Virus record (IMG/VR): IMGVR_UViG_3300010885_039212
Span: 1-64,000 of that record
DNA from: a virus
Reading direction: 5' to 3' (one strand)
Length of the DNA: 64,000 bases
Part shown: positions 24,531 through 49,202 of the stretch, piece after piece
How positions within the stretch are numbered: position 1 is the first letter of the stretch
How the letters are laid out: each line of letters begins with the position of its first letter
Made by a program: the position numbers and the translations under genes
The notes under the pieces: model-generated
Told to the model about the DNA's origin: nothing
Database searches by the model: none
What the model saw: only the letters and a program-made list of their open reading frames with translations

Positions 24531-24604
24531 TGGGGTATGGTGAAGTGGTATCACAACGGATTTTGATTCCGTCGTTCTTGGTTCGATTCCAAGTACCCCT
24601 GCCA
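24531..24604 (+). tRNA. tRNA-Gln (TTG)
   Basis: Acceptor TGGGGTA/TACCCCT, anticodon loop TTTTGAT with anticodon TTG, T-loop TTCGATT, CCA encoded. First tRNA of the cluster. Confidence 0.9.
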
Positions 24605-24608
24605 AATT

Positions 24609-24684
24609 GCGTCGGTAGCTCAGCTGGTAGAGCAGTAGACTTTTAATCTATTGGTCGTGGGTTCGAATCCCGCCCGACGCACCA
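24609..24684 (+). tRNA. tRNA-Lys (TTT)
   Basis: Acceptor GCGTCGG/CCGACGC, anticodon loop CTTTTAA, CCA encoded. Followed by an inverted repeat (CATATTAAAA…TTTTAATATG) that may form a processing hairpin before tRNA-His. Confidence 0.92.
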
Positions 24685-24733
24685 TATTAAAATATATTAG
24701 AGATAAGCAGGAACTTATAGTATGTTTTAATAT

Positions 24734-24809
24734 GGTGACTGTAGATCAATGGTAGATCCCTGGATTGTGATTCCAGTCGTTGGGAGTTCGAGTCTCCTCA
24801 GTCACCCCA
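24734..24809 (+). tRNA. tRNA-His (GTG)
   Basis: Encoded extra G at -1 pairing C73, acceptor GTGACTG/CAGTCAC, anticodon loop TTGTGAT, CCA encoded. Confidence 0.92.
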
Positions 24810-24814
24810 AGTAT

Positions 24815-24890
24815 GCCAAGATAGCTCAGTTGGTAGAGCACCTGTTTGAAGCACAGGGTGTGGGCAGTTCGATTCTGTCTCTTGGTACCA
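24815..24890 (+). tRNA. tRNA-Phe (GAA)
   Basis: Acceptor GCCAAGA/TCTTGGT, anticodon loop TTGAAGC between CCTGT and ACAGG, CCA encoded. Confidence 0.92.
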
Positions 24891-24891
24891 T

Positions 24892-24965
24892 TCCCTTGTA
24901 GCTCAATGGTAGAGCAAAGTGCTGATAACGCTGAGACACAAGTTCGATTCTTGTCGAGGGAACCA
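24892..24965 (+). tRNA. tRNA-Ile (GAT)
   Basis: Acceptor TCCCTTG/CGAGGGA, anticodon loop CTGATAA; the anticodon stem has one mismatch at its outer pair. CCA encoded. Confidence 0.85.
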
Positions 24966-24970
24966 GTTAT

Positions 24971-25045
24971 GCCTTGTTAGCTCAGTGGTAGAGCGTCTCG
25001 TTTACACCGAGAGGGTCGGCAGTTCGAAACTGTCACAAGGTACCA
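24971..25045 (+). tRNA. tRNA-Val (TAC)
   Basis: Acceptor GCCTTGT/ACAAGGT, anticodon loop TTTACAC between TCTCG and CGAGA, CCA encoded. Confidence 0.92.
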
Positions 25046-25047
25046 AT

Positions 25048-25122
25048 ACCCGATTAGTGAAATGAATATCACACCTTGCTACGAACGAGGAGTTGGGAGT
25101 TTGATTCTCTCATTGGGTGCCA
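25048..25122 (+). tRNA. tRNA-Arg (ACG)
   Basis: Acceptor ACCCGAT/ATTGGGT, anticodon loop CTACGAA, T-loop TTTGATT, CCA encoded. A34 would need host TadA to become inosine. Confidence 0.88.
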
Positions 25123-25127
25123 ATAAT

Positions 25128-25217
25128 GGAAGTATGGTCGAGTCTGGTTTATGGCACCTGTCTTGAAAACAGGCAACTCGAAAGGGTTCGTGGGTTCAAA
25201 TCCTACTACTTCCGCCA
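25128..25217 (+). tRNA. tRNA-Ser (TGA)
   Basis: Class II tRNA with long variable arm. Acceptor GGAAGTA/TACTTCC, anticodon loop CTTGAAA between CCTGT and ACAGG, CCA encoded. Confidence 0.92.
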
Positions 25218-25233
25218 ATTTAAGGAGATGTAT

Positions 25234-25812
25234 ATGCCAAGTGTATTTTTAGTAAGCGATACTCACTTTGGTCATGCTGGTGTATGCAGATTCACTACGC
25301 AGACTGGAGAGAAGTTAAGACCATGGGATAATGCCGATGAAATGGATGAAGCCATGGTTGAAATGTGGAATGAAACAGTGAAGCCAACTGACAAGGTTTA
25401 CCATTTAGGTGACGTTGTCATTAACCGCAAAGCCATGGGAATCATGCGCAGGTTAAATGGTGACAAAGTTTTAATTCGTGGTAACCATGATATCTTTAGA
25501 GATGATGAGTATCGTGAACACTTTCGTGAGTTACGTGCTTATCATGTGATGAATGGTATGATCTTAAGTCATATTCCTATTCATCCTGAATCTTTAGGTA
25601 GATTTGGTGTTAACATCCATGGTCATTTACACTCAGGTAGAGTGATGATGAATGATCCATTTGGACATCGTGAACCAATGATCGATCCTAGATATCATTG
25701 TGTTTGTGTTGAACAAACTGATTTTCGTCCTATCTTATTTGAACGTGTAATTGAACGCATCAAAGAAGAAGGTGGCGAAGTTGGATTTCGTAATGGTAAT
25801 GGACCAACTTAG
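25234..25812 (+). CDS. calcineurin-like metallophosphoesterase
   Basis: 192 residues from ATG 25234 (AAGGAG upstream). The metal-binding motifs appear in order: SDTHFGH (D-x-H), LGDVV (G-D), GNHD, and SHIPIHPES and NIHGHLHSG (G-H-x-H). Substrate unknown; phage enzymes of this type act on phosphoesters, nucleotides or nucleic acids. It lies between two tRNA-Ser genes, and its TAG overlaps the first base of the next tRNA. A second, different phosphoesterase is at 38061. Confidence 0.85.
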   Translation: MPSVFLVSDTHFGHAGVCRFTTQTGEKLRPWDNADEMDEAMVEMWNETVKPTDKVYHLGDVVINRKAMGIMRRLNGDKVLIRGNHDIFRDDEYREHFRELRAYHVMNGMILSHIPIHPESLGRFGVNIHGHLHSGRVMMNDPFGHREPMIDPRYHCVCVEQTDFRPILFERVIERIKEEGGEVGFRNGNGPT

Positions 25813-25900
25813 GAAGACGGGCAGGACGGTAATGCAGCAGATTGCTAATCTGTAGATTGTATAATATGATCATAGGGTTCGACTCCCTAGTCTTCCGCCA
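25812..25900 (+). tRNA. tRNA-Ser (GCT)
   Basis: Class II tRNA with a long variable arm. Acceptor GGAAGAC/GTCTTCC, anticodon loop TTGCTAA, CCA encoded. First base shared with the TAG of the phosphoesterase gene. Confidence 0.88.
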
Positions 25901-25916
25901 ATTTAAGGAGAAAAAT

Positions 25917-25964
25917 ATGTCAGTAGAAGAGTATTGGAAATGGATAAGAGATAATGCACAGTAA
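25917..25964 (+). CDS. possible 15-residue peptide
   Basis: AAGGAG then ATG at ideal spacing, coding MSVEEYWKWIRDNAQ and ending just before tRNA-Leu. Too short to judge by coding statistics; noted because the ribosome site is as good as that of neighbouring real genes. Confidence 0.3.
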   Translation: MSVEEYWKWIRDNAQ

Positions 25965-25965
25965 C

Positions 25966-26049
25966 ACGAGAATGGTGGAATGGTATACACAGGAGACTTA
26001 AAATCTCCCGACGCAAGTCATGAGGGTTCGAGTCCCTCTTCTCGTACCA
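25966..26049 (+). tRNA. tRNA-Leu (TAA)
   Basis: Class II. Acceptor ACGAGAA/TTCTCGT, anticodon loop CTTAAAA between GGAGA and TCTCC, CCA encoded. Confidence 0.9.
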
Positions 26050-26052
26050 ATT

Positions 26053-26129
26053 GTCTCGGTAGCTCAGTAGGATAGAGCAACAACCTTCTAAGTTGTGGGT
26101 CAGGAGTTCGAATCTCTTCCGAGACGCCA
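26053..26129 (+). tRNA. tRNA-Arg (TCT)
   Basis: Acceptor GTCTCGG/CCGAGAC, anticodon loop CTTCTAA between ACAAC and GTTGT, CCA encoded. Confidence 0.92.
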
Positions 26130-26133
26130 GTTT

Positions 26134-26208
26134 GGGCTGATAGCTTAATGGTAAAGCAGTGAACTCATAATTCATTGAGTGTAGGTTCAATTCCTACTCA
26201 GCCCACCA
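26134..26208 (+). tRNA. tRNA-Met or tRNA-Ile2 (CAT)
   Basis: Acceptor GGGCTGA/TCAGCCC, anticodon loop CTCATAA, CCA encoded. No initiator features. One of three CAT tRNAs here; it could be elongator Met or the lysidine-modified Ile2. Confidence 0.85.
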
Positions 26209-26213
26209 TATAT

Positions 26214-26288
26214 GCACGTGTGACTGAATGGTAAGGTAGCGGTTTGCAAGTCCGATGTTCGTAGGTTCGATTCCTACCACGTGTTCCA
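26214..26288 (+). tRNA. tRNA-Cys (GCA)
   Basis: Acceptor GCACGTG/CACGTGT with G-U first pair, anticodon loop TTGCAAG with a T-T mismatch beside it, discriminator T, CCA encoded. Confidence 0.8.
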
Positions 26289-26290
26289 GA

Positions 26291-26437
26291 TTATTTTTTG
26301 TTGTAAAGATCGAAAAGAGTTTTAACTTTTTCTTCAAGAACAGCAATTCTATTATCTGCTTTTGCAAGAATAATTACTAAAGTGATGAAACCAACAAAAA
26401 CTGGCCACAACTTCATGATGTTATCGATTAGATCCAT
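26291..26437 (-). CDS. small minus-strand membrane/coiled-coil protein
   Basis: 48 residues read on the minus strand from ATG at 26437 with a perfect GGAGG upstream. One membrane segment (LWPVFVGFITLVIILAK) then a short coiled coil (ADNRIAVLEEKVKTLFDL). The shape fits small lysis-accessory or XhlA-like phage proteins, which I recall in T4-like aquatic phages. It runs against all neighbouring tRNAs, so it needs its own minus-strand transcript. Confidence 0.65.
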   Translation of the reverse strand: MDLIDNIMKLWPVFVGFITLVIILAKADNRIAVLEEKVKTLFDLYNKK

Positions 26438-26463
26438 GCTACCTCCATTTTTGCTTATTTATC

Positions 26464-26490
26464 AATAACCATGTTGCAAGAATGGTTATT
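26464..26490. terminator. perfect inverted repeat upstream of minus-strand gene
   Basis: AATAACCAT (26464-26472) and ATGGTTATT (26482-26490) with a 9-base loop. Lies between the minus-strand gene and a plus-strand promoter; could end read-through on either strand or be a protein-binding site. No long T run. Confidence 0.4.
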
Positions 26491-26500
26491 AAATTAGTGC

Positions 26501-26529
26501 TTTACAAATAATAAAAAGTGTAGTATAAT
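26501..26529 (+). promoter_or_regulatory. sigma70-type promoter
   Basis: TTTACA (26501-26506), 17-base spacer, TATAAT (26524-26529). Followed only by a 14-codon frame at 26536 before the next promoter. Confidence 0.65.
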
Positions 26530-26599
26530 AAATCTATGATGAGAAGAAAAGAGAGTGGTTTGAAAGACCCTCTGAAATGAAAGGTTATTAAATTATCTC

Positions 26600-26628
26600 T
26601 TTACTTTTAATCATAAATGCGGTATAAT
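26600..26628 (+). promoter_or_regulatory. sigma70-type promoter
   Basis: TTTACT (26600-26605), 17-base spacer, TATAAT (26623-26628). Leader CTGGAATCAAAAAAGG leads to the start at 26659. Confidence 0.7.
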
Positions 26629-26658
26629 TCTATTCTGGAATCAAAAAAGGAAAACAAA

Positions 26659-26727
26659 ATGGAATGTTTGAAATGTAAAAAATGGCACTTTAAAATGAAT
26701 CCTTGTAATCCTGGAAAACAAAGGTAA
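26659..26727 (+). CDS. 22-residue Cys-rich mini-protein
   Basis: Codes MECLKCKKWHFKMNPCNPGK plus two residues. It has its own promoter and AAAAAAGG ribosome site with the same 24-base leader spacing as larger early genes. The three Cys could bind a metal. It may equally be a decayed remnant of a longer early gene. Confidence 0.4.
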   Translation: MECLKCKKWHFKMNPCNPGKQR

Positions 26728-26735
26728 GGATAGTT

Positions 26736-26810
26736 GCTCGGCTCGTCTATCGGTTAGGACACTGCCCTTTCACGGCAGGAAGACCAGTTCGATTCTGGTG
26801 CCGAGTACCA
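26736..26810 (+). tRNA. tRNA-Glu (TTC)
   Basis: Acceptor GCTCGGC/GCCGAGT (G-U first pair), anticodon loop CTTTCAC between CTGCC and GGCAG, CCA encoded. Confidence 0.9.
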
Positions 26811-26820
26811 AATTTAATTG

Positions 26821-27180
26821 CATTGGGTTACCAATACCAGTAGGTGATCTAGTTTGTCTACAACTGACGGAGTTGTAACTGCTAGATTACACGAAACCTC
26901 GAGATAATATCAGAAGGACGCTGGAGCAAGTTGGTCTGTAATGTGGTTGACAAACAAATCCGTGGACGACACGGTAGGGCAGGTTCAAAACTGTTATTTT
27001 TGTCAAACATCCCAGTGTGATTAAATTTGGTATTAGTTTAGTGCTATCAAGGTATCGTGATCTGATCAATCACTATTCGGGTCCAACTGGCGAGGGACGG
27101 ATCCTAATATAACTGCTTAGTCGCTATGGGATGTTAGCTACAGACCCCTAAATCGAGCAGATAGCACTAAACTAATACCA
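26821..27180 (+). ncRNA. candidate large structured RNA, about 360 nt
   Basis: No credible gene on either strand, but many exact helices. Domain 1 is closed by CATTGGG (26821-26827) with CCCAGTG (27011-27017) and contains GTGATCTAG/CTAGATTAC (26844-26852/26882-26890) with inner ACAACT/AGTTGT, TTGACAAA/TTTGTCAA (26947-26954/26999-27006) with inner CCGTG/CACGG. Domain 2 is closed by a perfect 21-bp repeat (27028-27048/27160-27180) with inner GTGAT/ATCAC. It sits between tRNA-Glu and tRNA-Tyr. GOLLD- or ROOL-like ornate phage RNA is possible; not recognised with certainty. Confidence 0.55.
27028..27180 (+). repeat. perfect 21-bp inverted repeat enclosing 111 nt
   Basis: TGGTATTAGTTTAGTGCTAT begins the left arm (27028-27048); the right arm (27160-27180) is its exact complement. 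The longest perfect stem noticed in the window, ending one base before the tRNA-Tyr. Confidence 0.85.
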
Positions 27181-27181
27181 T

Positions 27182-27267
27182 GGAGAATGAGAAGCATTGG
27201 TGACTTCAGCAGACTGTAAATCTGTCGCCTTATGGCATATGGGGTTCGAATCCCTGATTCTCCACCA
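27182..27267 (+). tRNA. tRNA-Tyr (GTA)
   Basis: Class II with long variable arm. Acceptor GGAGAAT/ATTCTCC, anticodon loop CTGTAAA between GCAGA and TCTGT, CCA encoded. Starts directly after the 21-bp inverted repeat. Confidence 0.9.
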
Positions 27268-27274
27268 AGTATTT

Positions 27275-27349
27275 GGTCTCGAAGTGTTCATGGACGCACA
27301 CAACACTGTCACTGTTGAAGAAGGGGATCGTTACCCCTCGAGACCGCCA
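27275..27349 (+). tRNA. tRNA-Asp (GTC), divergent T-loop
   Basis: Acceptor GGTCTCG/CGAGACC, D-stem GTGT/GCAC, anticodon loop CTGTCAC between CAACA and TGTTG, CCA encoded. The T-loop reads ATCGTTA instead of TTC-purine type, so position 54 is unusual. Confidence 0.8.
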
Positions 27350-27356
27350 TGTTTAT

Positions 27357-27484
27357 GTCCTGGTAATCCACGCCAAGTTCGCAACTTGGGTTCTACGATG
27401 AGTTCGCAACTCATGGCAGTAGAGAGGTAAAAACCCTGTTTATAGGGTCTCCAGTGAGTAGGTGAAACTCCTATAAGGACGCCA
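27357..27484 (+). ncRNA. tRNA-like element with two inserted hairpins
   Basis: GTCCT (27357-27361) pairs AGGAC (27476-27480), followed by GCCA; a T-arm-like hairpin GTAGG/CCTAT with loop TGAAACT abuts it, and an ACCCT/AGGGT hairpin stands where an anticodon arm would be, with only a 6-base loop. Between lie two similar hairpins, CCAAGTTCGCAACTTGG and ATGAGTTCGCAACTCAT. It looks like a tRNA shape with about 70 extra bases: a decayed tRNA, an interrupted one, or a distinct RNA. Confidence 0.45.
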
Positions 27485-27665
27485 TTTTTGTTGGAATGAA
27501 TTCAAAGTCTTGTGACTTTTTTAGTAGTTCGTCAGGAACGAATTTGACAGATACATATTTATCAGGAATGAAATGTTTTGATGTAGTATAAGTCGATTGT
27601 GTGTATTTAATGTTGTCTATTTTATACAACATTAAATATGAATCTTCAGGTGGGATATGTGACAT
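27471..27665 (-). CDS. possible minus-strand small protein
   Basis: 64 residues on the minus strand (MSHIPPEDSYLMLYKIDNIKYTQ…), with plausible phage codon use and composition, no signal or membrane segment. No ribosome site is visible before the ATG and no family is recognised. An internal 9-bp hairpin (TAATGTTGT/ACAACATTA) lies within. The end overlaps the tRNA-like element. Confidence 0.45.
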   Translation of the reverse strand: MSHIPPEDSYLMLYKIDNIKYTQSTYTTSKHFIPDKYVSVKFVPDELLKKSQDFEFIPTKMASL

Positions 27666-27680
27666 AAGTATATTTATTAT

Positions 27681-27755
27681 TCCAGAGTAGCACAGCGGTA
27701 GTGCAGTTGACTGTTAATCAATTGGTCGTAGGTTCGATCCCTGCCTCTGGAGCCA
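27681..27755 (+). tRNA. tRNA-Asn (GTT)
   Basis: Acceptor TCCAGAG/CTCTGGA, anticodon loop CTGTTAA between GTTGA and TCAAT, CCA encoded. Confidence 0.92.
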
Positions 27756-27760
27756 GTTAT

Positions 27761-27835
27761 CGCAGAGTGGAGAAGTAGTATCTCATCAGGTTCATACCCT
27801 GAAGATCGGTGGTGCGATTCCACCCTCTGCAACCA
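27761..27835 (+). tRNA. initiator-type tRNA-fMet (CAT)
   Basis: Acceptor CGCAGAG/CTCTGCA has the C1-A72 mismatch typical of bacterial initiators. Anticodon loop TTCATAC between TCAGG and CCTGA; the three consecutive G-C pairs of cellular initiators are only partly present. CCA encoded. Confidence 0.8.
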
Positions 27836-27840
27836 AACAT

Positions 27841-27923
27841 GCCCCGATGGTGGAATGGTAGACACGCTGGTCTTAGAAGCCAGTGCCTAGTGCGTGAGAG
27901 TTCGAGTCTCTCTTGGGGCACCA
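27841..27923 (+). tRNA. tRNA-Leu (TAG)
   Basis: Class II. Acceptor GCCCCGA/TTGGGGC, anticodon loop CTTAGAA, CCA encoded. Confidence 0.9.
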
Positions 27924-27930
27924 GAATTTC

Positions 27931-28005
27931 GGTGATGTAGCACAGTGGTAGTGCAACTGCTTCATACGCAGTTGGTCGGTGGTTCAAATCCACCCATCAC
28001 CACCA
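27931..28005 (+). tRNA. tRNA-Met or tRNA-Ile2 (CAT)
   Basis: Acceptor GGTGATG/CATCACC, anticodon loop TTCATAC between ACTGC and GCAGT, CCA encoded. Fully paired first position, so not an initiator. Confidence 0.88.
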
Positions 28006-28036
28006 GTCATAAGTAGATAACATTGGAGATTTTTAT

Positions 28037-28255
28037 ATGGATATGGATCAAGCAGCAGTCTTTTTGGCAGGAAGTATTTTAATGTCAGTGGGTGTGCTTG
28101 TTATTGTTGGTGCGGTAGTTGCTATCAATAACATCATACACAGATATTGGAAAAATCTTGGATGGAATTTACTTCCATTTGATTATAGACCAGCAGTGTT
28201 TCTTGATCCAAGTGAGATGAAGAAAGAAGAACCAGTGTTAGAGAAGAAGAAATAA
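28037..28255 (+). CDS. conserved small membrane protein
   Basis: 72 residues: one long membrane segment (about 7-32, AVFLAGSILMSVGVLVIVGAVV) then INNIIHRYWKNLGW and a Lys/Glu-rich tail. I recognise the opening AAVFLAGSIL and NNIIH-KYW from small T4-like phage proteins. GGAG upstream of the start. Lies between tRNA-Met and tRNA-Pro. Confidence 0.6.
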   Translation: MDMDQAAVFLAGSILMSVGVLVIVGAVVAINNIIHRYWKNLGWNLLPFDYRPAVFLDPSEMKKEEPVLEKKK

Positions 28256-28257
28256 TA

Positions 28258-28334
<77 letters not shown>

Positions 28335-28347
28335 ATTTAGGTAATGC

Positions 28348-28821
28348 ATGTATACAATAGAACAACATAAAATCGATGATGAAATAATTTCTTCACTAGA
28401 AAGTATTTTAGATTGTTGCGTTGAGTTCAATGAGAAATTGATTCCACTGAACAGTACCTACACCAAAAATGGAATACAAACAGAGAATCTTTGTGGTTAT
28501 AAAAATGTTGATGAAGTAATAACAAAAATCTTAATCAACATAAACCATACAGAGTTGACTTGTAAACATCTGCATATGATATCTTATAACGAAGGTGGTA
28601 TGCAAGAGGTTCACGATCACGCAAAGACTGAAACACATTCTTTCGTGTTGTATCTATCGACTTGTGAAGATGGTGGTGAAACTGTCTTTATAGATGAAAC
28701 TGGTAATGAAGTTTCAGTTCCTCCAAAGAGGGGTAGTTTATTGTTATTTGATTCAAGAATACTGCACTACAGTAAACCCACAAAAAGTAAAAAGAAGGTA
28801 GTTGTTGCAGCATTAATTTAA
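28348..28821 (+). CDS. 2OG-Fe(II) oxygenase (prolyl-4-hydroxylase-like)
   Basis: 157 residues. The catalytic order is visible: SYNEGGMQEVHDHAK (HxD/H iron ligands), LYLSTCEDGGETVF, PKRGSLLLFDSRILHYS (distal His) and KSKKKVVVAA (Lys for 2-oxoglutarate). Such phage enzymes may hydroxylate proteins or nucleotides; no substrate can be inferred. Inside the tRNA cluster between tRNA-Pro and tRNA-Ala. Confidence 0.8.
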   Translation: MYTIEQHKIDDEIISSLESILDCCVEFNEKLIPLNSTYTKNGIQTENLCGYKNVDEVITKILININHTELTCKHLHMISYNEGGMQEVHDHAKTETHSFVLYLSTCEDGGETVFIDETGNEVSVPPKRGSLLLFDSRILHYSKPTKSKKKVVVAALI

Positions 28822-28825
28822 ATAT

Positions 28826-28900
28826 GGGTTGTTAGTTTAGTTGGGAAAACACTTGCCTTGCACGCAGGAGTGGGGAGTTCGAATCTCCCACGATCCACCA
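28826..28900 (+). tRNA. tRNA-Ala (TGC)
   Basis: Acceptor GGGTTGT/ACGATCC (two wobble pairs), anticodon loop CTTGCAC, CCA encoded. Confidence 0.88.
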
Positions 28901-28904
28901 ATTT

Positions 28905-28978
28905 GCCCTTTTAGTATAATGGTATTACACCTGTTTTGTAATCAGGTTACGGCAGTTCGATTCTGTCATGGGGCACCA
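28905..28978 (+). tRNA. tRNA-Thr (TGT)
   Basis: Acceptor GCCCTTT/ATGGGGC with one T-T mismatch, anticodon loop TTTGTAA, CCA encoded. Confidence 0.85.
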
Positions 28979-28982
28979 ATAT

Positions 28983-29056
28983 ATCTCTCTAGTGTAATGG
29001 CAGCACGTCGGTCTCCAAAACCGCCAGTCGGGGTTCGATTCCCTGGAGGGATGCCA
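28983..29056 (+). tRNA. tRNA-Trp (CCA)
   Basis: Acceptor ATCTCTC/GAGGGAT, anticodon loop CTCCAAA, discriminator G, CCA encoded. Confidence 0.88.
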
Positions 29057-29060
29057 TATT

Positions 29061-29134
29061 GCGGGATTAGTTTAATGGTCAAACGAAACCTTGCCAAGGT
29101 TTAGTCACCAGTTCGATTCTGGTATCCCGCTCCA
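29061..29134 (+). tRNA. tRNA-Gly (GCC)
   Basis: Acceptor GCGGGAT/ATCCCGC, anticodon loop TTGCCAA between AAACC and GGTTT, discriminator T, CCA encoded. Confidence 0.92.
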
Positions 29135-29145
29135 ATAAAGTTCAT

Positions 29146-29835
29146 ATGAAACACATAATCACACTTTTATCGTTCGTAGCATTAAACAGTTTTTCTAAAC
29201 CAGTTGTAACTGAATCTTATGTTCTTTATGATGCAGATTCTCATACAACAATAACTGGTAAAGACATGAACGAAGTTAAACCAGTGGCTAGTTTAACTAA
29301 ATTAATGACTGCAATGATCGCAATTGACAGAGGAATTGGTGATAGAGAATCATTTGAGAAACTGCTTATTCGTTCTGATAATGGTGTGGCAGAAAGTCTC
29401 GCAAAGAAATATCCAGGTGGTAAACTAGCATTCATTAAAGCAATGAATACTAAAGCAGAATCACTTGGATTACATTACACTTCATATCATGATCCAAGTG
29501 GTCTCAGTGTTTTCAATCGTAGTACAGCAAAAGAATATGTCTCCGTAGTATTGGAAGCAAACAAGTATCCAATGATTCGAGAGATATCATCGATGCCACT
29601 CAAAAAAATAAAGAATAAAAAACGATCATACGTAATCTACAATACTAATAGTGCTCTACTAAAGGAGTATGAAAATATTGTGATAAGTAAAACAGGGTTT
29701 ACCAGTCATGCTGGTAGATGTCTTGCTTTGTATGTGGAAGAGAAACCTAAGAAGCACATTATTGTGATACTCGGTGAACCAACTCCGCAGAAGAGAGCAG
29801 AAATAGCGAGAGAGTTAATCAATATGACGAAGTAA
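29146..29835 (+). CDS. exported S11-family D-Ala-D-Ala peptidase (PBP-like)
   Basis: 229 residues with a signal peptide (first 17 residues). All three penicillin-binding active-site motifs are present: SLTK (about 49-52), SDN (77-79) and KTG (182-184). It is shorter than DacA (about 400) and closer in size to PBP7/PbpG. It would cut or trim peptide cross-links of peptidoglycan in the periplasm. An S11 enzyme is unusual in a phage; it may remodel the wall during infection or lysis. Directly downstream of tRNA-Gly. Confidence 0.85.
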   Translation: MKHIITLLSFVALNSFSKPVVTESYVLYDADSHTTITGKDMNEVKPVASLTKLMTAMIAIDRGIGDRESFEKLLIRSDNGVAESLAKKYPGGKLAFIKAMNTKAESLGLHYTSYHDPSGLSVFNRSTAKEYVSVVLEANKYPMIREISSMPLKKIKNKKRSYVIYNTNSALLKEYENIVISKTGFTSHAGRCLALYVEEKPKKHIIVILGEPTPQKRAEIARELINMTK

Positions 29836-29845
29836 GGAGATAATC

Positions 29846-30328
29846 ATGCGTCCTATCGACATCAATGAAGTAAAAACATTCATTGAAGCACAAAGTCCAG
29901 AAACAAAAATTTACATTGGGGCTGATTCCGAAAGATTTAATATAGGTAATGATTGGTACGCAGATTATACTTTGGCAATCGTTGTTCACATTAATGGTAA
30001 CAGTGGTTGTAAAATTTTTGGTGAAGTTCAGAGAGAACGTGATTATGATAGAAAGCAGAACAGACCACGTATGCGGTTAATGACTGAAGTCTACAAGATT
30101 GCAGATCTATATTTGAAACTACAAGATGTTCTTGAAGATCGAGATGTAGAAGTTCACCTAGATATTAATCCAAACGAGATGCATGGATCATCTTGTGTGA
30201 TTAATGAAGCAACAGGATATATAAGAGGTATGTGTAATGTGGTGCCATTGGTTAAACCAAATGCATTTGCGGCATCATACTGTGCAGATCGAATGAAAGA
30301 TATTTTGTCAAATAGAATGGTAGCATAA
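29846..30328 (+). CDS. YkuK-like RNase H-fold protein (DUF458)
   Basis: 160 residues. The opening strand IYIGADSERF with acidic residue and HLDINPNEMHGSSCVINEATGY match the YkuK/DUF458 group of predicted RNase H-like nucleases. Activity is unproven for the family. GGAG lies before the start; the gene ends one base before tRNA-Gly(TCC). Confidence 0.7.
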   Translation: MRPIDINEVKTFIEAQSPETKIYIGADSERFNIGNDWYADYTLAIVVHINGNSGCKIFGEVQRERDYDRKQNRPRMRLMTEVYKIADLYLKLQDVLEDRDVEVHLDINPNEMHGSSCVINEATGYIRGMCNVVPLVKPNAFAASYCADRMKDILSNRMVA

Positions 30329-30329
30329 T

Positions 30330-30403
30330 GCGGGATTCGTAAAATGGTATTACCTTAGCCTTCCAAGCTAAAGTCGGGAGTTCGATTCTCCCATCCCGCT
30401 CCA
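30330..30403 (+). tRNA. tRNA-Gly (TCC)
   Basis: Acceptor GCGGGAT/ATCCCGC, anticodon loop CTTCCAA between TTAGC and GCTAA, CCA encoded. Last tRNA of the cluster; acceptor identical to the GCC tRNA. Confidence 0.92.
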
Positions 30404-44909: not shown

Positions 44910-45029
44910 ATGAAAAAACTTATACATTTTTTAAGACTATCTTATAGGATGTGTTGTATAGCTCGACTTGCAGCATCTTATACGAATTTGGGTCAAGTTA
45001 ACAAAGCCAGAGCCTTGTACGTAAAATGA
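44910..45029 (+). CDS. small basic conserved phage protein
   Basis: 39 residues: SYRMCCIARLAASYTNLGQVNKARALY. The MC-IA-LAA-Y..LG..-KAR pattern looks like one TPR-like helix pair and is seen in small phage proteins. Sits between iscU and the IscA-type gene, overlapping the latter (ATGA). Confidence 0.55.
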   Translation: MKKLIHFLRLSYRMCCIARLAASYTNLGQVNKARALYVK

Positions 45030-45355
45030 TAACGCTTACCGAAAAAGCCTGTGAAAAAATAAAAACTCAAATTAAAAATCGTGGTACTGGCGATGGGATT
45101 AGGCTTGGTGTAAAGACCACAGGATGCAGTGGCTTAGCATATACAATGGAGTATGTCGATAAATATGAATTTGAAGAAGGTGTAACTAATTACGCTCAAA
45201 AAGATTTTGCAGTTCTTGTAGATACAAAGAGTGATCCTTATCTAAATGGATTAACCATGGATTGGGTTCGTAATGGACTCAATGAAGGATTTGATTTTCA
45301 AAACCCAAACGAACGAGACCGCTGTGGTTGCGGAGAAAGTTTCAGAGTAAAATAA
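45026..45355 (+). CDS. A-type iron-sulfur carrier (IscA-like)
   Basis: 109 residues with the three conserved Cys of A-type carriers: KTTGCSGLAYTMEY and CGCGESF near the C-terminus. It accepts clusters from IscU and passes them to target enzymes. More IscA-like by its TTGCSG segment than the second carrier at 45750. Confidence 0.88.
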   Translation: MITLTEKACEKIKTQIKNRGTGDGIRLGVKTTGCSGLAYTMEYVDKYEFEEGVTNYAQKDFAVLVDTKSDPYLNGLTMDWVRNGLNEGFDFQNPNERDRCGCGESFRVK

Positions 45356-45749: not shown

Positions 45750-46073
45750 ATGATAACAATAACAGAATCAGCAAAGATAAAAATTCTAGATCTTTTCGCA
45801 GAAGAAGGTAATCCTGACTTATGTTTAAGAACATTCGTACAAGGTGGTGGATGTAGCGGAATGAGTTATGGATTTACATTTGATGAGATAATGAACGAAG
45901 ACGATTTTGAAGTACCTCTTGAAAAAACTAAAATACTAATAGATTCCATGAGTATGCAATATCTAACAGGAGCAACTGTGGATTATAAAGAAGATATACA
46001 AGGCTCACAATTTGTTATAACTAATCCAAATGCACAATCAACCTGTGGTTGTGGAAGTAGTTTCTCAGTATAA
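45750..46073 (+). CDS. A-type iron-sulfur carrier (ErpA-like)
   Basis: 107 residues with [19 protein letters not shown] and STCGCGSSF, very close in pattern to ErpA (GGGCSG..YGFTFDE). Second carrier of the cassette. Phage targets could include the class of Fe-S or radical enzymes of the host; none is obvious among the phage genes seen. Confidence 0.88.
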
Positions 46074-46074
46074 T

Positions 46075-46728
46075 ATGAAGACATTTATACACCATGAATT
46101 CGATAAACTCCAACGTGAAACCTCTCCCGATGGTAAAAGAGTTTACAAAACTCCGTCGGGTCGAGCCTACCCTAGCGTCACAACAGTTACAGGACTCCAC
46201 TCAGCAAAATCAATCGCACAGTGGAGAGCAAGAGTCGGAGAAGCAGAAGCCAACAGAATATCAGGTCGCGCAAGTGCACGTGGCACAAGAATCCACAGTC
46301 TCTGCGAATCATTCCTCCGCAATGAAAGATGTGAGCCTGATATCTTCGATCGAGAATTATTTCAGGGAATTTCACCCCACCTTGAAGAAATAGATAATAT
46401 ACATGCGCTTGAAGATCCTCTGTACTCAGATCATCTTGAAGTTGCGGGAACTGTTGATTGTATTGCTGAGTTTAGAGGTAAGTTATCTGTAATAGATTTT
46501 AAAACTTCAAGTAAAGTAAAAACTCGTGATGATATTCACAATTACTTTATGCAAACATCAGCATATGCAGTTGCCTTTGAAGAACGAACTGGGATTCCTG
46601 TTGGTAGACTTGTAGTTATTATGGGAGTTGATAATGAGGATCCATTGATATTTGTCGAGAAGAGAGATACTTGGATTGATGGTTTCTGCAAATTGAGAGA
46701 AGAATATAAAAATAAATTTGCTTTATAA
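46075..46728 (+). CDS. PD-(D/E)XK exonuclease
   Basis: 217 residues from ATG 46075. RecB/Cas4-like core: GTRIHSLCESFL, LEVAGTVDCIAEF and SVIDFKTSSKVK (D…D-x-K), then NYFMQTSAYAVAFEE. Phage nucleases of this kind act in recombination or DNA degradation. The first 310 bases have C-rich third positions and then the composition drops sharply to AT-rich; the protein reads smoothly through. Its end carries the tmRNA promoter. Confidence 0.8.
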   Translation: MKTFIHHEFDKLQRETSPDGKRVYKTPSGRAYPSVTTVTGLHSAKSIAQWRARVGEAEANRISGRASARGTRIHSLCESFLRNERCEPDIFDRELFQGISPHLEEIDNIHALEDPLYSDHLEVAGTVDCIAEFRGKLSVIDFKTSSKVKTRDDIHNYFMQTSAYAVAFEERTGIPVGRLVVIMGVDNEDPLIFVEKRDTWIDGFCKLREEYKNKFAL

Positions 46729-46746
46729 CTAAATATAAGGTATAAT
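46718..46746 (+). promoter_or_regulatory. sigma70-type promoter for tmRNA
   Basis: TTGCTT (46718-46723), 17-base spacer, TATAAT (46741-46746). Overlaps the end of the exonuclease gene; expected start near 46752. Confidence 0.75.
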
Positions 46747-46952
46747 GAAGGTATTGCTGTATGAAGTGATGTAAAACGTGTTCTGGACGGGAGTTCGATT
46801 CTCCCCACCTCCACCAAAACGGCACTACACCCCTCTTAACAATGGGCAACCTTGTAGTGCGTTTTTGATGGGGGTGACTAGGTTTCGACAGGGCAATTAG
46901 TAACTGCGTGGACAGCACATCAGAGTAGATGTTAAAACTAAACAAAGTAAAC

Positions 46953-46985
46953 GCAAACGACTCACAGTTCGCATTGGCAGCCTAA
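46953..46985 (+). other. tmRNA tag reading frame (ANDSQFALAA)
   Basis: Resume codon GCA at 46953-46955; ten residues ANDSQFALAA, then TAA. The ALAA end is the degron read by ClpXP in bacteria. Confidence 0.9.
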
Positions 46986-47002
46986 ACGCTGACTAGGGTT
47001 TC

Positions 47003-47040
47003 GGTAGGTTTCCTCGTAACAGAATAACCTACCATTTTTT
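47003..47040 (+). terminator. terminator of the tmRNA transcript
   Basis: GGTAGGTT (47003-47010) and AACCTACC (47026-47033) then TTTTTT. Confidence 0.85.
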
Positions 47041-47058
47041 AAATAAAGGAATATAATC

Positions 47059-47562
47059 TTGTTGGGTATTATATTAGGTAATGGACCAAGTAAACAGTTT
47101 TACGATAGAAGCGGAGACTGTGTAATTGGTTGTAATATCCCAAGCAAGGAATTTAGTGTTGACGCAACTGTAATATGTGATGTGGAGATTGTTTATCTTT
47201 TAGCGACATCTCCAGAATTAGTTCAATGTCCAGTTATTGTCAGCACTAAAGCATGGGAAAAAATGAAAGAGTTACGTATCGATCATTATTTTGATATTCG
47301 ATACGTGTTTCAACCTAAAGACTGGTATAATACTGCACATTATGCTGCAGAGTTTTTGCTCGAGCATGGAGACTTCAATACAATACATATATGGGGATGC
47401 GATTCTATATTCAGTGATACTACAGAATCTTCTACTGATAAGTTTGTAAAAAAAGAAAACACTAAAGACCAAAAATTTATTAAAAATTGGCGTAGAGTGT
47501 GGGATGAGATTTTTAACCGATACCCAAATATCGACTTTAACACGATGAGGATAGAAAAATGA
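47059..47562 (+). CDS. MptE/DUF115-like protein
   Basis: 167 residues with a TTG start at 47059 (AAAGGAAT upstream). ILGNGPSKQFYD and DCVIGCNIP near the start, and HIWGCDSIFSD later, match the DUF115/MptE-like Rossmann-type proteins linked to sugar or pterin chemistry. Short compared with cellular members. Substrate unknown. Confidence 0.6.
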   Translation: MLGIILGNGPSKQFYDRSGDCVIGCNIPSKEFSVDATVICDVEIVYLLATSPELVQCPVIVSTKAWEKMKELRIDHYFDIRYVFQPKDWYNTAHYAAEFLLEHGDFNTIHIWGCDSIFSDTTESSTDKFVKKENTKDQKFIKNWRRVWDEIFNRYPNIDFNTMRIEK

Positions 47563-48129: not shown

Positions 48130-48642
48130 ATGCGAGTATATTTAAATACTTTTTTGATTATCATTGCGATGGTATGTATTACTATCTTCGTCACAACGAA
48201 ACCACAAGAAACAAAATTGTTTAATGTCAAATACAAAGAATTAACAGCTGAAGCAAGAAAACAAGTAGATTGCTTGGCAGACAACATTTATTATGAAGCA
48301 GGTTATGAACCAGATGATGGTAAACTTGCAGTTGCCCTTGTAACAATTAATAGAACGCAAGATCCAAGATTCCCAAAAGATATTTGCTCTGTAGTAAAAC
48401 AAAAGGTAAACTTACTGTGTCAGTTCTCTTGGTTTTGTGAAGGTATAAAAACCAAGAAACATGATGTTTATGCGAAATCAAAAGAGATCGCAATATTCAC
48501 TTATGTTAATTATGAGATGCTTGACGATATAACAAATGGAGCGTTATATTTCCATGCGGATTATATTAACCCAAATTGGAAACTGAAGAAGACCAAAGTT
48601 ATTGGTCGACATATATTTTATAAAGAAGGAAGAAACATCTAA
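48130..48642 (+). CDS. SleB-like cell wall hydrolase, membrane-anchored
   Basis: 170 residues. N-terminal membrane/signal segment (about 4-24), then the Hydrolase_2 domain: DCLADNIYYEAGYEPDDGKLAVALVTINR with catalytic Glu, CQFSWFCEG and ALYFHADYINPNWK…GRHIFYKE. Relative of the 32354 product. AAGGAG upstream. The stop overlaps the ClpP-like start. Confidence 0.82.
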   Translation: MRVYLNTFLIIIAMVCITIFVTTKPQETKLFNVKYKELTAEARKQVDCLADNIYYEAGYEPDDGKLAVALVTINRTQDPRFPKDICSVVKQKVNLLCQFSWFCEGIKTKKHDVYAKSKEIAIFTYVNYEMLDDITNGALYFHADYINPNWKLKKTKVIGRHIFYKEGRNI

Positions 48643-49202
48643 TGATGCAAAAATTAAACCTCCAATTGAATGAGACATCAGACTCTCGTCATTCGTTCTT
48701 TCTATTGATGGAGGAAATTACTCTTGCTGCATGCAAGCAAGCAGTTGAATGGGTGTTTGAAGCAAACTTTGCTGAAGAACGTCCAGATATGTTGAATATG
48801 ATTATCACTACTCCTGGTGGTGATTTGAATGCAGCATTTGCTTTAGTTGATACCATGCGTGGTTCTGCAATTCCGATTCGAACAATTGGTCTTGGTCAGA
48901 TTGCTTCAGCTGGATTGATGATTTTTATTGCTGGTGCCACAGGGCAACGTATTCTTACACCGAATACTTCTATCTTGTCACATCAGTATTCTTGGGGTGC
49001 GTTTGGAAAAGAACATGAATTGTTTGCTCAAATTAAAGAGTTTGACTTGACCACTAAACGCATGATTGCTCATTACAAAAAGTGCACTGGCTTGAAGGAA
49101 GACCAAATTAGAGAGTATCTACTTCCACCTCAAGATATTTGGCTAAGTGCAGCAGAATCTAAAAAGTTAGGACTATGCGATGACGTTAAAGACCTTAGGT
49201 AA
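48642..49202 (+). CDS. ClpP-like serine protease
   Basis: 186 residues. Catalytic features of ClpP/SppA fold: ITTPGGDLNAAFALVD, GLGQIASAGLMIF (nucleophile Ser in the A-S-A-G elbow), ILSHQYSWGAFG (His) and acidic residue after. No ClpX/ClpA partner gene is seen, so it would need host unfoldases or act in head maturation as proposed for aquatic T4-like phages. Lies 1.6 kb from the tmRNA, whose tag ends in a Clp degron. Confidence 0.85.
   Translation: MMQKLNLQLNETSDSRHSFFLLMEEITLAACKQAVEWVFEANFAEERPDMLNMIITTPGGDLNAAFALVDTMRGSAIPIRTIGLGQIASAGLMIFIAGATGQRILTPNTSILSHQYSWGAFGKEHELFAQIKEFDLTTKRMIAHYKKCTGLKEDQIREYLLPPQDIWLSAAESKKLGLCDDVKDLR

Follow-up and report, generated by a model that had tools for sequence, protein, structure and literature searches.

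The window analysed here, the first 64,000 nucleotides of a 95,733-base virus record (IMGVR_UViG_3300010885_039212; GC 36%), carries T4-like genes for gp32, the gp59 loader, a baseplate tail tube cap, ribonucleotide reductase and PhoH, with gp32 nearest (~50%) to those of Methylophilales phage Melnitz and Pelagibacter phage HTVC008M. Directly behind a gene for a PDDEXK exonuclease lies a permuted (two-piece) tmRNA gene with the tag ANDSQFALAA (~46753-47034 of the window), recognized by ARAGORN and by two Rfam models (Table 1). The ARAGORN call, with the same tag, spans 46724-47076. Close upstream of the exonuclease gene, two neighboring copies of an unknown family, phrog_17776, are found (45026-45355 and 45750-46073).

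Table 1. Features of the tmRNA locus (positions in the window)
Feature	Position	Strand	Remarks
PDDEXK exonuclease, upstream syntenic marker	46030..46728	+	
Putative sigma-70-type promoter (TTGCTT, 17 nt, TATAAT)	46718..46746	+	9 of 12 matches; overlaps exonuclease gene end
3′ piece of tmRNA: P2 strand, T-arm, acceptor 3′ strand, encoded CCA	46753..46816	+	5′ end inferred from promoter
Intervening sequence, predicted to fold as a hairpin and presumably excised by tRNA-type processing	46817..46869	+	Fold -14.0 kcal/mol
5′ (coding) piece: acceptor 5′ strand, D-like segment GGTTTCGACAGGG, P2 partner, tag frame, 3′ hairpin	46870..47034 (3′ end approximate)	+	
Tag reading frame GCA...TAA, ANDSQFALAA	46953..46985	+	Stop TAA
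3′ hairpin GGTAGGT...ACCTACC, CCTCGTAACAGAA loop, then T run; probable terminator	47003..47040	+	Sequence and fold
ClpP-like peptidase	48642..49202	+	Pfam PF00574, 98.7 bits; Ser, His and Asp of Clp triad aligned

The sequence features of a permuted tmRNA (RF04321) are present: the CCA-bearing tRNA-like part lies 5′ of the 5′ part, the acceptor strands pair and include G3:U70, and the tag carries a protease signal. An earlier note, written from the DNA letters, had described a circularly permuted, two-piece tmRNA encoded by the phage; covariance models, synteny and covariation all agree with it, and the acceptor strands, T-arm, CCA and tag frame that it named were found in place. The acceptor pairing that it claimed at seven positions, between GGGGGTG (46870-46876) and CACCTCC (46806-46812), holds at 7/7, one of them being the G3:U70 wobble. 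The T-arm, GGGAG-TTCGATT-CTCCC, occupies 46789-46805 and the CCA ends at 46816; in the 5′ piece, which starts at 46870, the acceptor strand is followed by GGTTTCGACAGGG. TGCTGT (46755-46760) is able to pair with ACAGCA (46912-46917) as P2, a helix supported by the Rfam alignment and by sequence complementarity. Free folding of the whole precursor (z -1.7) did not recover P2, and a scripted search for the P2 partner chose alternative sites in many rows of relatives. In the same fold, the intervening sequence again formed a strong hairpin, and the linker hairpin proposed earlier stands as a predicted structure (-14 kcal/mol), with its removal presumed, by tRNA-type processing; among relatives, this sequence is 4-211 nt long. 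The proposed terminator is likewise partly upheld, as the hairpin (47003-47033) and the T run are present, but a terminator scan of the window did not list the hairpin, whose loop is too long for that scan. The tag ANDSQFALAA recurs in four other loci (L017, L026, L032 and L098).

The best-matching family is RF01850 (beta_tmRNA), with 124.3 bits over the full model length against a cut-off of 84 (E 2e-37), followed by RF04321 (tmRNA_permuted), with 119.9 bits against a cut-off of 47 (E 8e-23). The scan with standard and two-piece models that the earlier note had proposed thus gave matches well clear of the low scores that would have counted against it. The standard model RF00023 gave sub-threshold matches divided between the two halves of the gene, as expected for a permuted arrangement. 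RF01850 scores range from 87 to 157 bits in relatives; the 124 bits here, compared with 289 bits in a bacterial copy from Cupriavidus, indicate that the coding piece is divergent in parts.

The promoter proposed earlier combines a perfect TATAAT (46741-46746) with a weak -35 element, TTGCTT, and was absent from the list produced by a generic promoter scan of the window. With its 9 of 12 matches, it is credible mainly because relatives carry sigma-70-type promoters scoring 10-12 of 12, with TTGACA-17-TATAAT at the same distance. A promoter of at least 10/12 ends near the 3′ piece in 27/85 loci, mostly 7-8 nt before it, compared with 0.7 expected from mononucleotide shuffles. A T4 late-promoter-like TAAATA, which may be a chance occurrence, was also seen upstream of many copies.

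Scanning IMG/VR with a pattern for the tmRNA 3′ end retrieved at least 119 stretches, and most of the loci fetched among the pattern matches listed received a permuted-tmRNA call from ARAGORN. Because this sample is biased towards tmRNAs, two further samples were seeded by neighboring proteins alone. In the tmRNA-blind, exonuclease-seeded sample, 66/68 two-flank loci held a permuted tmRNA (65 by ARAGORN and one, L200, by Rfam), with the exonuclease on one side of it and the next syntenic gene on the other. The ClpP-seeded sample gave a tmRNA in 44/45 loci, and the one exception, L232, is the L200 contig again. Since the two samples overlap and contain near-copies, their counts are not independent. 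The recurrent gene order is exonuclease, tmRNA, small protein, cell-wall hydrolase, (ClpP), gp33-like, gp59 and gp32, and the clade carrying the tmRNA at this fixed place is a large group of uncultured phages. The gene is not absolutely required, since a very few relatives are without it: ARAGORN found no tmRNA in the similar loci L210 and L212, and L212, the one of the two scanned with Rfam, was negative there as well. The copy that ARAGORN misses and Rfam finds (L200:6726-7107) is a permuted tmRNA that has diverged and whose 3′ piece contains an insertion; its tag is ANDSVYALAA, with a TGA stop. In L200 and L212, a small frame for a GroES-like (gp31-like) co-chaperonin was noticed by eye between the exonuclease and the cell-wall hydrolase, beside or replacing the tmRNA.

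Constraint on the RNA is visible in 31 distinct tRNA-like domains, where pairing holds in 99% of the acceptor cells and in 100% of those of the T-stem. Both sides vary at pairs 4, 5 and 6 of the acceptor and at pair 2 of the T-stem, yet pairing there stays far above partner-shuffled expectation (e.g., 31/31 vs 13.4), a control that does not remove relatedness. The alanine-identity pair G3:U70 is invariant (31/31). Tags of 10 residues mostly follow A-N-D/E-x-x-F/Y-A-L-A-A, and 84/86 tags, whatever their length, end in AA. Unusually long tags of 23-31 residues occur in permuted tmRNAs of 12 other viral contigs (L014, L023, L040, L051, L060, L070, L081, L088, L112, L114, L119 and L121), two of them 212 and 383 kb long. 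These long tags often begin AN(A)(D/N/S)TF(D/E)(F/Y) and still end in AA, in open frames with a normal resume context; L081 and L121 exceed the Rfam cut-offs.

The closest published counterpart is the two-piece ssrA of Melnitz, a cultured phage of Methylophilales that is likewise T4-like. Both phages share a slot consisting of PhoH, PDDEXK nuclease, tmRNA, late coactivator, gp59 and gp32, so that the neighbors stand in the same order, but the RNA subtype differs: Melnitz has an alpha-type tmRNA (RF01849, 106.7 bits) with the tag ANDNYVPVDYALAA, whereas the one described here is beta-type with ANDSQFALAA. The 3′ end of the Melnitz tmRNA also bears a glutamine riboswitch, while Rfam gave no riboswitch match here. 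Among bacteria, the Cupriavidus copy (NZ_CP080769, RF01850) has the same permutation and tRNA-like domain, and its tag, ANDEKFALAA, resembles that of the phage in having 10 residues and ending in ALAA. Its CCTCG-AACAGAA 3′ hairpin loop is similar too, the CCTCGTAACAGAA loop here resembling the CCTCGAAACAGAA loop of the Cupriavidus tmRNA, although the two genes share 75% identity across only half of the phage gene. Two ssrA-like sequences were seen on large replicons of Cupriavidus that are recorded as plasmids, one a full beta_tmRNA (L127) and the other without a normal tag by ARAGORN (L128).

BLASTN of the gene against cultured phages gave no match at 1e-5, and a relaxed limit gave weak matches that led to unannotated permuted tmRNAs. 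Permuted tmRNAs unannotated in their records were seen in Xanthomonas phages Rb1 and X1 and in Alcaligenes phage vB_Af_QDWS595 (L129, L130 and L131). The last of these, a phage of a betaproteobacterium, has a beta-type permuted tmRNA (93.8 bits) with the tag ANDNVYAAAA, but belongs to the Schitoviridae and differs in its unrelated locus and low nucleotide similarity. The sole bacterial-genome match to the exact 36-nt 3′ end (L125) was set aside: it is a standard one-piece tmRNA in a Patescibacteria MAG, and its different gene layout means that the match reflects general T-arm conservation. In other lineages, the tmRNAs of mycobacteriophages Bxz1 and Wildcat and of Bacillus phage G are standard one-piece molecules and are not known to be permuted. 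As here, these ssrA genes are encoded by the phages themselves (PMC4131195).

Phage tmRNAs were known earlier (PMC4131195), and huge phages encode both tmRNA and SmpB (PMC7162821). Two-piece forms were described in 2022, making up 53/133 unique phage tmRNA structures, 50 of these 53 from aquatic phages (PMC9004378), and a 2025 tmRNA database holds 79 unique bacteriophage sequences (PMC11915505). The gene therefore belongs to a known kind, and the rarity implied by the earlier note does not hold, given the 2022 report and the abundance of two-piece phage tmRNAs in IMG/VR. New here are the strict slot conservation and near-core status in the clade, the beta subtype, and the evidence for constraint and for a promoter.

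A betaproteobacterial host is likely, judging from the beta-type RNA and from the relatedness to a Methylophilales phage. A tRNA array (24531-30403) comprises 25 tRNAs called by ARAGORN and one Rfam-only tRNA-Cys (26214-26285), whose anticodon loop, TTTGCAA, was read by eye as containing the anticodon GCA. By our own isotype count, the set apparently covers all 20 amino acids, which fits a phage that supports translation. A search for SmpB (PF01668) gave no match in this record, which is incomplete, or in 16 related ones, several of them 156-174 kb, with positive controls in 10 bacterial genomes. A self-contained phage trans-translation system with its own SmpB partner is accordingly not seen in these 17 records, and the tmRNA presumably uses host SmpB. 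Of the suggestion that the phage replaces or supplements host ribosome rescue, replacement finds no support, no SmpB gene having been found, and supplementation fits. A change in protein turnover brought about by the tag, which the earlier note also raised, is plausible in view of the downstream ClpP-like peptidase.

We consider it very probable that the gene is a functional two-piece phage tmRNA of betaproteobacterial type, kept by selection in a large T4-like clade and adding rescue capacity. Host sigma-70 RNA polymerase would make one precursor from the promoter directly upstream. Host tRNA-processing enzymes (RNase P and 3′ nucleases) would then cut out the hairpin linker, by analogy with bacterial permuted tmRNAs, which such enzymes cleave (PMC11915505) and whose processing we assume for the phage gene. 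The two pieces, held paired by the acceptor stem and P2, could be charged by host AlaRS via G3:U70 and brought to stalled ribosomes by host SmpB, where the stalled protein would receive ANDSQFALAA as a mark for Clp-type proteolysis. The extra rescue capacity would serve infection, when mRNA breakdown and heavy translation may raise the number of non-stop complexes. The most likely function is additional trans-translation capacity during infection, possibly supplying the phage ClpP.

Several other readings were weighed. Integration at ssrA is known to leave fragments. Such an event, a fragment source also discussed in the literature (PMC9004378), or a misassembly could in principle have left a piece of host ssrA here as a passive passenger or artefact, and the earlier note had named an assembly error placing a bacterial ssrA here as a possible refuter. 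The chance of this is slight in the extreme: the gene is complete, it is surrounded by T4-like replication and tail genes, no integrase was found among the window proteins scanned, and its order is shared by dozens of independent viral contigs and a cultured phage, a synteny that rules out a misassembled or stray host fragment. That the RNA is a decoy titrating host SmpB and so inhibiting host tmRNA is very improbable as well; the tag-less tmRNA of mycobacteriophage DS6A offers a phage precedent (PMC4131195), but this RNA is full-length and its tag frame is constrained in relatives, whereas a decoy needs no tag. A use in counter-defence or takeover, offsetting the cleavage of mRNA or tRNA by nucleases of the host or of defence systems, or the decay of host tmRNA, is conceivable though doubtful. 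The tRNA set, apparently complete for the 20 amino acids, points that way, as does the promoter-like site, which suggests early transcription in many relatives, but that set is open to other explanations.

A reading in which the tmRNA and the phage ClpP-like peptidase form a trans-translation module, with tagged fragments of host or phage proteins degraded by a Clp protease that the phage has modified and their amino acids recycled or turnover changed, is unlikely in our estimate. The ClpP-like gene lies ~1.6 kb downstream on the same strand, is syntenic in most close relatives, and encodes a protein whose triad was aligned to ClpP of known structure. The peptidase is probably not the head protease and is not needed as one, since seven relatives of near-complete size have a separate T4-type S77 prohead protease. 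Against the module, more distant phages hold the tmRNA slot without ClpP in it, and the pair is therefore not obligatory; a joint role is possible, attractive and unproved. The nearest ClpP-like proteins in cultured phages are those of Synechococcus phage BUCT-ZZ01 and Sinorhizobium phage Phosso (~52%). Equally unlikely is a wider proposal, that the lytic T4-like lineage runs its own tagging and degradation branch, from a near-core tmRNA to the phage ClpP with the host giving only SmpB and the unfoldase, and that RNAs of different bacterial types have replaced one another within a slot that was itself retained.

In close relatives, the upstream portion of the 3′ piece comes in two forms, TATGAAG and TAATCCCTTC. 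Placed on a ClpP tree, these forms require no fewer than 8 changes, and branches with good support impose at least 3 of these. This suggests RNA exchange at a fixed slot; recombination including ClpP could blur it. The alpha-type ssrA of Melnitz has been read as evidence of a host switch (PMC9004378). If the slot is old and the RNA was swapped in place, RNA type alone would be weaker evidence on past hosts.

The conservation of the gene bears on how phage tmRNAs are regarded, usually as curiosities or accidental captures. That it is kept almost universally at a single locus across a large clade suggests a lytic phage group that relies on, or profits strongly from, a copy of its own, and the role of trans-translation in infection becomes testable.
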